A DNA stretch of 50,301 bases. Origin: Armatimonadota bacterium. Its GTDB lineage: Bacteria; Armatimonadota; Fimbriimonadia; Fimbriimonadales; GBS-DC. The notes beneath the pieces were generated by a model that worked only from the letters and a program-made list of their open reading frames with translations, did not search any database and was not told the DNA's origin. Location of the stretch: the NCBI GenBank assembly GCA_023511915.1, contig JAIMAN010000015.1:1-50301 (forward strand), written 5' to 3'. The translations under genes and the position numbers were made by a program. Of the stretch, positions 27,143 through 28,758 are shown one piece after another (position 1 is the first letter of the stretch; each line of letters opens with the position of its first letter).

Positions 27143-27160
27143 TATACTGGTTCAGGAGGG
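27143..27160 (+). promoter_or_regulatory. Promoter and ribosome site upstream of the phage-like genes
   Basis: GGG then TATACT (27143-27148), followed by AGGAGGG (27154-27160) and an ATG at 27168. It is the only clear host-style -10 box ahead of the small phage-like operon. Confidence 0.5.
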
Positions 27161-27167
27161 AATCGCG

Positions 27168-27236
27168 ATGCGAGCATCACGACGGAAACGGCAAACCGCC
27201 CCAGAGAGAGTGAACGGCGTTGAATCGCGCCCGTGA
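27168..27236 (+). CDS. Possible 22-aa basic leader peptide
   Basis: MRASRRKRQTAPERVNGVESRP followed by TGA. The ribosome site is ideal (AGGAGGG, 7 bases) and the promoter is good, so it is likely translated if transcribed. It may be a leader peptide, or the remaining start of a decayed first gene of the phage-like operon. The next gene begins 149 bases later; that gap (27237-27384) holds nothing I recognise. Confidence 0.3.
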   Translation: MRASRRKRQTAPERVNGVESRP

Positions 27237-27384
27237 GGGCAAGCCGCCGCCCAAGCTGAGCGCGCGTCAACCCCGCAAATCGCCCTGCACAGACGCCCAA
27301 CGATAAGTGCCTAATGCCCTGCGCAGGCGGGTATGGGGGCGTTGACAGGCGCGGGGCAGCGTGTCCCCCTGCATGGTGAAACCG

Positions 27385-27798
27385 ATGCGACACTACCGCG
27401 TCTCTGCCGTACCGCATCCTGTGTTTCGCGGCTATCGCAAGGGGGGCGTCTGGTTCCCGAACGCGCCCGCGTTTGTGGCGCTGGACGAGTCTGCACTGAC
27501 CGAAGCGATACGCGCCTGCCCCTTGCTCCAGATTGAGGAGGTAGATCCCGATGCGAACGACGATTCTGCGCTGGGCATGGCAGATGCTCAAGCCGACGCT
27601 GATTCCGTGGCTGCGCGAGCGCGCCCTGCGCCTGCCCGCACATCAACGCGACGCGCTCGCCCAACGCCTGCGCCTGCCCCTACAGACCATCGAGCAGGTC
27701 GAAAACGCCCTGCGACAAGTCGTGCTGTACCGACTGGAACGCTGGGAACCCTGACGGAGGCAACCGATGGACTGGACGCAACTGATTCCCGTGATTAG
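27385..27798 (+). CDS. Mu-like phage small protein (HI1506/FluMu N-like start), probably frame-extended
   Basis: Residues 1-54 (MRHYRVSAVPHPVFRGYRKGG, then GVWFPNAPAFVALDESALTEA, then CPLLQIEEVD) resemble the short Mu-like N-terminal module whose members end near such an EEV. The remaining 80 residues are Ala/Pro/Arg/Thr-rich, resemble an out-of-frame reading of GC-rich DNA, and overlap completely the better-looking gene at 27551. A TAG at 27542 in the neighbouring frame would end the gene normally. The ATG at 27385 follows GGTGA; a GTG at 27361 and an ATG at 27373 are also in frame. Function unknown. Confidence 0.5.
   Translation: MRHYRVSAVPHPVFRGYRKGGVWFPNAPAFVALDESALTEAIRACPLLQIEEVDPDANDDSALGMADAQADADSVAARARPAPARTSTRRARPTPAPAPTDHRAGRKRPATSRAVPTGTLGTLTEATDGLDATDSRD
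27551..27754 (+). CDS. Small phage-operon protein, 67 aa
   Basis: The start is set by GAGGAGGT 8 bases upstream. The product has an amphipathic helical start (MRTTILRWAWQMLKPTLIPWLRERA) followed by a compact helical part (HQRDALAQRLRLP, IEQVENALRQVVLYRLERW). I do not recognise it. Its gene lies wholly inside the 3' part of the previous frame. Its composition is more protein-like than that of the competing frame, so I take this one as coding. Confidence 0.5.
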   Translation: MRTTILRWAWQMLKPTLIPWLRERALRLPAHQRDALAQRLRLPLQTIEQVENALRQVVLYRLERWEP

Positions 27799-28042
27799 CG
27801 CGCTGGTGGGCTGGGCGTTTTTGCTCACCCGCCAGATTCTCGCGCGGATGGACAAGTTGGTCGAGGCGGCGCAACGCCAAGAGCAGGCGATTACCGACGA
27901 GTTTATCGCCTACCTGCGCCAGAGTGTCGCCCGCACGGAGGCAAGCTACGAACGGCTGGAGCTTGCGCTGGACGATGTGCGCGACGCGCTGTTGAGCCTG
28001 CGCCAAGCCATCACGAACTGGCAGGAGATCGCCAAGCCGTAG
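27767..28042 (+). CDS. Holin-like membrane/coiled-coil protein, 91 aa
   Basis: An N-terminal transmembrane helix (LIPVISALVGWAFLLTRQIL) is followed by a long charged helix (residues 25-85) with heptad spacing, built like small phage holin-type or XhlA-like proteins but with the helix first. A ribosome site GGAGG stands 7 bases before the ATG. It lies between the 67-aa gene (12-base gap) and the connector gene (12-base gap), so it is part of the same operon. Role inferred only from layout. Confidence 0.55.
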   Translation: MDWTQLIPVISALVGWAFLLTRQILARMDKLVEAAQRQEQAITDEFIAYLRQSVARTEASYERLELALDDVRDALLSLRQAITNWQEIAKP

Positions 28043-28054
28043 GGGTGAACCGCG

Positions 28055-28453
28055 ATGCTCAGTGTCTCCCGCGCCGATGTGAAGCGCAAGTTGCGCCTGA
28101 CGACCAACGAGTACGACGCCGAGATCGACGCGCTGATTGCCGAGATGCTGCCTGCGCTGCGCTACGCGATTGAGCCGAGCTACCTGAACACGAGCGACCC
28201 TGATTTGCTGGCGACGCTGAACTTGGGCGCGTTGGAGGTGGTCGCGGGCGAGATGGGGGCGACCCTCTACCGCGAGCTTGGGGCGTGGACGGGCTTTCGA
28301 ATCGGTTGGCTGCAGGTGCAGCCGCCTGCCCTGCGCGAGCCTGCCGACCCGACGGGGCTAAAAGCGCAGGGCTACGCCCGTCTCAAGCCGTTTGTCAAGC
28401 GTGAGGCGCAGTTGCTGTTTGTGTACCGCGCCCGCGAGGAGGAATCGCCGTGA
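28055..28453 (+). CDS. Phage head-tail connector-like protein
   Basis: The 132 residues open with VSRADVKRKLRLTTNEYDAE, then IDALIAEMLPALRYAI. This is the helical pattern of gp6/gp15-type head-tail connectors (V-K-x-x-L-R-L ... Y-D-x-x-I-x-x-L-I). They continue with a second helical bundle (DLLATLNLGALEVVAGEMGATLY). The ribosome site is AGGGGTG. Its stop overlaps the next gene by 4 bases. No portal, capsid or terminase gene is nearby, so the virion module is incomplete. Confidence 0.6.
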   Translation: MLSVSRADVKRKLRLTTNEYDAEIDALIAEMLPALRYAIEPSYLNTSDPDLLATLNLGALEVVAGEMGATLYRELGAWTGFRIGWLQVQPPALREPADPTGLKAQGYARLKPFVKREAQLLFVYRAREEESP

Positions 28454-28758
28454 TGCTGCGCGAGTGTCTGAACCACTGGTTGCGTCGCTATGGCGAGCCG
28501 TTCCAAGCGGGCGCGCAGGGCTATCGCGGGCTGTTTTTCCAGCCGCCGGGGAGCCTGCTCCGCTGGCTGTTCAGCCCTGAAGCGTTGGGCGAGTTGCCGC
28601 GTCCGCTGTGGGCGGTCGCCGTCGCGCCTACGGTGAGCCTGCCCGATGCGACCGTGCTGACTTGGCGCGGGGCGAGCTATCGCGTGCTGTCGTCGCTGGA
28701 GTTCCGCTTCGATGCGACCCCCGTCTATCGCCTGATGCTGATTGCGCCTGTGGCGTAG
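28450..28758 (+). CDS. Phage head-closure or tail-adaptor-like protein, 102 aa
   Basis: A small beta-rich protein (LRWLFSPEAL, WAVAVAPTVSLPD, VLTWRGASYRVLSSLEFRFD, YRLMLIAPVA) that follows the connector directly with a 4-base overlap and a GAGGAGG ribosome site. In siphophages the gene after the connector encodes the stopper/adaptor, and this size and beta pattern (WRGxxYRVxS) fit. Identification is by position and pattern only. Confidence 0.5.
   Translation: MMLRECLNHWLRRYGEPFQAGAQGYRGLFFQPPGSLLRWLFSPEALGELPRPLWAVAVAPTVSLPDATVLTWRGASYRVLSSLEFRFDATPVYRLMLIAPVA

Follow-up and report, generated by a model that had tools for sequence, protein, structure and literature searches.

Gene transfer agents (GTAs) are defined by tailed-phage-derived proteins that form phage-like particles, by genes that are fully endogenized, often at several loci, and mostly vertically inherited, and by the packaging of mostly random host DNA for delivery to other cells, their own genes being too large to be packaged whole (PMC9662315); the genes of RcGTA are spread over five loci (PMC9662315). 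The cfPICIs are phage satellites with self-made capsids that depend on a helper phage (PMC11389934). A hot-spring MAG survey lists "incomplete" prophage regions in Fimbriimonadales, one of which spans 7.1 kb and includes genes for portal, head, and capsid (PMC8597652). Head genes of the kind described here have probably been seen before and read as prophage remnants. We found no report in open-access full text of a gene transfer agent in Armatimonadota, Armatimonadetes, or a fimbriimonad, and the novelty of the present system is provisional to that extent.

We analyzed a stretch of 50,301 nt (here, the window) from a Fimbriimonadales (Armatimonadota) genome of 2.73 Mb (G000, contig C101) that carries a short plus-strand operon. 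With a probability of roughly 0.7, we read this operon as the neck module of a domesticated, vertically inherited tailed-phage head of the GTA type, whose genes occupy four unlinked loci. Support for a domesticated head-and-packaging system is good; among possible functions, gene transfer fits best but is unproven. The open reading frames of the operon comprise a block (g2 to g5, 27551-28758) and a short g1 upstream, preceded by a promoter-like element:

27341..27366, plus strand: promoter-like element GTTGAC-N15-TGTCC, 44 bp upstream of g1
27385..27798, plus strand: g1, small protein resembling Mu gp35/FluMu_N, constrained part about 27385-27550
27551..27754, plus strand: g2, 67-aa protein, dN/dS 0.20
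27767..28042, plus strand: g3, 91 aa, N-terminal hydrophobic helix and coiled coil
28055..28453, plus strand: g4, predicted head-tail connector (adaptor under the portal), from an AlphaFold model and VIA
28450..28758, plus strand: g5, predicted head-closure (stopper) protein, from AlphaFold, Foldseek, and VIA

The five-gene operon proposed in a preliminary description of this DNA proved to be real: orthologs of g4 occur in 13/13 genomes of the same genus, 18/18 of the family, and 41/61 of the order. The largely intact frames that had been noted in the window, and whose conservation had been proposed as a check, were found in these relatives as well, the g4 matches being without internal stops, with a frameshift in G001. 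The genes g2 to g5 travel as a block, and g3 is absent from G008 and G011. The most likely start of g1 is 27385, where an SD (GGTGA) is kept in seven species; its long frame continues past the constrained part to 27798, overlapping g2 and the start of g3, and protein-like evolution is limited to the first ~55 codons (dN/dS of 0.153 versus 0.64 for the long ORF). An alternative start of g5 is possible at 28453. A good ribosome site had been described for each gene, which holds for g2, g3, and g5 but not for g4, where the site is weaker. Ordinary host genes do lie on both sides, with YidC, Jag, and an aromatic-amino-acid-decarboxylase-like gene to the left and a DnaJ-domain gene, a pilin-like gene, and an IscA-like gene to the right (all named by sequence reading). 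These flanking genes vary between species, even inside the genus, whereas the operon is conserved together with its promoter; the same-locus synteny envisaged earlier was therefore not borne out, the exact site not being conserved. Nor is the TATACT promoter assigned at 27143 conserved, the conserved promoter-like element being instead the one at 27341-27366. A 22-codon ORF with a perfect AGGAGG site lies downstream of the TATACT box (27169-27237 of the window), without conservation in relatives.

Searching Pfam and PHROG with the five operon proteins as single sequences gave nothing usable, a PHROG scan of 21 g4 and 15 g5 orthologs returned no PHROG match, and sequence profiles compared with the PDB yielded only noise. 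Because these sequence-based searches were uninformative, structure prediction was needed, and AlphaFold models of g4 (pLDDT 82) and g5 (pLDDT 93) were built from 12 to 13 orthologs. The g5 model matched the stopper of siphophage R4C (Foldseek probability of 1.00), neck proteins of lambda, T1, and Pam3 (VIA Z of 10.1), RcGTA 6tba_3A (Z of 7.4), and also the head-closure protein SPP1 gp16; judged by its modeled fold, g5 is a stopper or head-closure protein of a phage neck. The g4 model had nine VIA matches at Z of 5.1 to 7.1, all to connector or neck proteins of phage type (Bxb1, SPP1 gp15, SaPI1, E217, and YqbG), and matched the gene-transfer-agent neck protein 6toa_D at a VIA Z of 4.8. Its Foldseek list was mixed with unrelated helical enzymes, so that the identity of g4 rests on VIA, gene order, and its neighbor g5; on this model g4 is a neck adaptor, with modest Z values and support from gene order. 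At the sensitivity used, no viral contig encoded a g4 relative.

The remaining operon genes have counterparts beside other head genes. A stand-alone 68-aa homolog of g1 follows the capsid gene in G020 (L100; PF17891 E value of 0.018, under the cutoff), and the phage contig L209 has a similar 70-aa FluMu_N-like gene in the same place, after the capsid. Family f19 has homologs of g2 within its head cluster, and a genuine prophage in G010 has one following its capsid gene. Small proteins homologous to g3 are found in head clusters of relatives. The hydropathy of g3 reaches a maximum of 1.64 over 19 residues, and this protein may be holin-like or membrane-anchored.

Terminase, portal, and capsid genes had been described as absent, which is true within the window but not for the genome, where all three are present elsewhere. 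Among the order relatives, g4 and g5 come after genes for a protease (phrog_976), for a cement protein (phrog_1731), and for a capsid protein of Mu gpT type (PF10124, E values of 1e-57 to 1e-62). A search of G000 for head families gave the following genes:

Contig C86, L092 10808-11587: protease
Contig C86, L092 10393-10806: cement protein
Contig C86, L092 9450-10379: gpT capsid protein (PF10124)
Contig C4, L163 3275-4342: portal (PF06074, E value of 1.3e-67; phrog_113, E value of 2.9e-68)
Contig C61, L162 9340-10497: terminase (phrog_2, E value of 5.2e-37)

The capsid, portal, and terminase genes of G000 are each present in one intact copy surrounded by host genes, and no integrase was seen adjoining the head loci of this genome. 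The same four loci recur in the complete genome G010, at about 1.23, 1.41, 2.27, and 2.56 Mb along the chromosome, and the neighbors of its terminase and portal genes match those in G000; loci unlinked in this way cannot enter one head as a single piece in either genome. The terminase matches solved phage terminase structures (nuclease 5m1f, E value of 1.7e-16; ATPase 4zni, E value of 1.3e-12), and Walker A, Walker B, the motif III core, and three nuclease aspartates are kept in 34/34 terminase orthologs from several families. The PF10124 matches on C86, like all other gpT matches including a prophage copy, are ordered 4-149, 219-289, 150-214, and the capsid segments thus seem permuted relative to the Pfam model.

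Nei-Gojobori dN/dS values within the window's genus were 0.153 for the N-terminal part of g1, 0.20 for g2, 0.072 for g3, 0.109 for g4, and 0.24 for g5 in the operon, and 0.062 for the capsid, 0.078 for the portal, 0.105 for the cement, 0.144 for the terminase, and 0.178 for the protease gene at the other loci. The nine genes (0.06 to 0.24) and the N-terminal part of g1 (0.15) are under purifying selection. The presence of g4, capsid, and portal is correlated across 51 good genomes (p of 3e-10, 2e-8, and 5e-9, values that are optimistic for related genomes). Terminase was not found in G016 (95% complete) by a PF03237 search, capsid was not found in G006 (93% complete), and portal and terminase are the only parts kept in G060; about a quarter of the order is without the set, which shows that it is dispensable. 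The capsid, portal, and g4 genes of G001 are frameshifted and its terminase has a stop, one lesion each at four unlinked loci (L032, L191, L192, and L193), while protease, cement, g2, g3, and g5 are open, as are four neighboring host genes comparable at full length. Either the whole system is being lost at once in G001, or assembly errors are confined to the system. Presence in a single strain, or frameshifts in close relatives, had been named beforehand as speaking against domestication; the former was not seen, and the latter were seen in this one species only, in four unlinked parts.

A capsid tree of 80 rows separates 49 host sequences from 12 families, together with two viral contigs, from 29 viral and prophage sequences (SH-aLRT of 99). 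Family labels change 12 times on the capsid tree and 14 times on the portal tree, in each case the minimum (12 and 14, respectively); both are quick trees with SH-aLRT as the only support. The two viral contigs, L209 and L210, are placed among the host capsids on long branches. Correlation with RecA distances was high for capsid (r of 0.89), portal (0.91), terminase (0.90), and g4 (0.82; 0/2000 permutations each), with r of 0.86 to 0.96 in family f1 and weaker values of 0.31 to 0.72 in f3 and f5. These sequence comparisons support vertical inheritance of the head set and its co-diversification with the host, as the definition of GTAs has it.

Set beside the described systems, the head set resembles the viriforms RcGTA, BaGTA, and BhGTA in its tailed-phage-derived head, portal, terminase, adaptor, and stopper, an origin for which the sequence and fold matches speak as far as homology is concerned. 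Like GTAs it is chromosomal, single copy, vertically inherited, and spread over several loci, being fully endogenized at four loci among host genes in both G000 and G010. It differs from these three viriforms in belonging to another phylum, in its Mu gpT-type capsid and Mu-type portal, in having no recognized tail or baseplate genes, and in that its packaging and transfer of DNA are putative. Both the gene families (gpI, gpT, gp29 portal, and gp35 to gp37) and the order protease-cement-capsid-gp35-like-connector-stopper are those of Mu-like phages; unlike these, the head loci have no transposase, tail, or replication genes, there being no contiguous genome of transposase, head, and tail but only dispersed head genes, and the terminase has its best matches in G20c/P74-26-type structures. 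The closest free relatives by capsid are the IMG/VR tailed-phage contigs L209 and L210 (47% and 44% identity), which share the head gene order, including the FluMu_N-like gene, but run on into tail genes and a tape-measure-like protein.

The preliminary description had considered a decayed prophage edge, a scattered gene-transfer agent, and a module retained for a cell function; the intact frames conserved in relatives and the scattered partner genes favor the latter two, and purifying selection and host-congruent inheritance argue against the first. Remnants of prophages being lost and kept by chance would share the phage homology of these genes, would decay as in G001, and would fit the "incomplete" prophage label given to Fimbriimonadales regions in the hot-spring survey (PMC8597652), but we consider this explanation highly improbable: it is already contradicted by the dN/dS values and by congruence with host families and RecA, the genes are single copies with invariant catalytic residues, and the genuine prophage in G010 looks different, with a long protein resembling a tape measure and a distant gpT of its own.

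A cfPICI-like satellite that makes and packs its own heads, uses helper-phage tails, and carries itself as cargo is also unlikely, if less so. Self-made capsids with reliance on a helper phage are known (PMC11389934), the clusters of other families are compact and tail-less, and head and packaging genes without tail genes, which do not encode the full particle, are what we found. The cfPICIs are, however, compact mobile islands, whereas the parts described here are dispersed, with no single mobile island and no integrase seen beside the G000 loci, and their inheritance tracks the host across families; four unlinked loci in the window's genus make self-packaging as one piece impossible. Somewhat better placed, though still improbable, is a cell function of the shell or motor that involves no DNA transfer, such as a storage compartment, antiphage decoy head parts, or programmed lysis. 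It would agree with the failure to recognize a tail and with the membrane proteins, as well as with the peptidoglycan hydrolases in the clusters of other families, but the nuclease and ATPase sites of the terminase have been kept, as has the full neck, and DNA packaging alone needs these; a PADLOC defense search gave no match.

Under our preferred reading of a domesticated head of the GTA type, protease/scaffold, cement, and Mu gpT-type capsid protein would build the head, the portal would occupy one vertex, the terminase would pump in DNA and then cut it, and g4 and g5 would close the portal as adaptor and stopper; the putative membrane protein g3 may serve in release. From these parts we infer particle formation, DNA packaging, release, and transfer. 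Since no phage genome is left to package, the particles would probably carry host DNA, as gene transfer agents do. Delivery could proceed through an unrecognized tail, a borrowed tail, or uptake through ComEC, a protein found in 59/61 order genomes and, being nearly universal, uninformative. If true, this reading would extend the few recognized gene transfer agents to a new phylum and to a new capsid lineage (Mu gpT), and possibly to a tail-less design, and the existence of such particles becomes directly testable in a cultured member.

No tail genes were recognized in or beside the head clusters, those of families f31 to f35 included, and profiles of sheath (PF04984), tape measure (PF10145), and Dit (PF05709) had no match in G000; across the order they matched 4/61, 4/61, and 0/61 genomes, respectively. 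No lysis gene was recognized in the window's genus, and the tail-fiber-like protein of G018 (L097 3825-6050) has no homolog in G000. The absence of a tail is supported by these searches, not proven, and tail genes may be unrecognized or distant. Four order genomes have sheath proteins of ~620 aa (L182, L183, L184, and L185), unlinked to head loci, which are possibly contractile injection systems. A broader interpretation would be a phylum-wide, ancient, tail-less viriform of head, motor, neck, and, in some families, lysis genes that packages and releases host DNA for tail-independent uptake; we offer it tentatively, with taillessness as the least secure point.

A GTTG[ACT]C-N15-T[AG]TCC-like element lies 38 to 46 bp before the start of g1 in 11/11 genomes and of the protease gene in 9/9 (loose form), its second half being imperfect before the protease gene in G000 and G010; its strict form is absent from all 239 control upstream regions of the same genomes. 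With a matrix made from g1 and protease, portal being held out, the best portal site fell at -41 to -49 in 11/12 genomes, and the portal median score was reached by 1.7% of controls. The terminase gene retains the first half alone (GTTGCC), at a conserved distance, and its median score was reached by 6.7% of controls. Over 0.9 Mb of G010 (30% of the genome), intergenic elements 38 to 47 bp before a gene start were found only at g1, protease, and portal, so that the scanned part revealed no further members. Promoter-like elements common to the loci make joint switching-on possible; as the GTTGAC half resembles an ordinary sigma-70 -35 box, its sharing among loci does not imply a dedicated regulon or sigma factor.

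A palindrome, TAGTAGA-N6-TCTACTA, overlaps the head promoter in family f3, and 12 of its 14 matches in 554 kb (up to 3 mismatches) fall immediately before the protease gene; the palindrome was found after the fact, and mononucleotide shuffles gave 4 to 12 matches in all. The other two matches lie before small homologous proteins whose HTH resembles sigma region 4 (phrog_3512 sigma factor, E value of 1.2e-6; Sigma70_r4_2 below the cutoff). Such proteins, encoded near head genes at L056 6576-7013, L172 1398-1814, and L319 16679-17080 (the last in f31, adjoining the small terminase), are candidate regulators of the head system; those in G050 and G026 have the f3 head-promoter palindrome in front of them. 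Similar palindromes near recA in f5 and f1 (L347, L341, L363, L351, and L358) are a possible SOS box. The palindrome is absent from the scanned f3 recA loci, so LexA control stays a lead, and the palindrome may be the operator either of the small regulator or of LexA.

Portal profile matches occur in 140/291 genomes of the phylum, as a single strong copy in many families. Families f31 to f35 have one cluster of small terminase (phrog E value of about 1.6e-4), terminase, portal, protease, cement, capsid, a variable gene, g4, g5, and a small membrane protein, with a peptidoglycan hydrolase (VanY/M15, Amidase_3, or M23) at its end in several of them, followed by host genes. The protease-to-g5 run of f19 is followed by the portal, directly or beyond other genes. 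Nine head genes are contiguous in G030 of f3, the rest of f3 and f5 mostly have two loci, and the window's genus has four. The ancestral arrangement seems to have been a compact head cluster that was dismantled step by step, and because dispersal varies by family (one cluster, two loci, or four loci), the break-up of a domesticated phage in the chromosome is traceable. The variable gene between capsid and g4 encodes 110 to 985 aa (L331 3915-6872, L327 970-3195, and L323 4564-5622), had no profile match in those scanned, and could specify a cell-binding head fiber. A more phage-like arrangement occurs on G018:C45 (L097 and L177), where a head cluster is accompanied by an amidase and by large proteins of 741 and 974 aa, and a portal and a different terminase-like gene lie about 24 kb away with host genes between. 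A separate, genuine Mu-like prophage (L094, G010:C1:668800-688700) has its own distant gpT, a tape-measure-like protein of 1094 aa, and, following its capsid, a g2-like gene of 61 aa.
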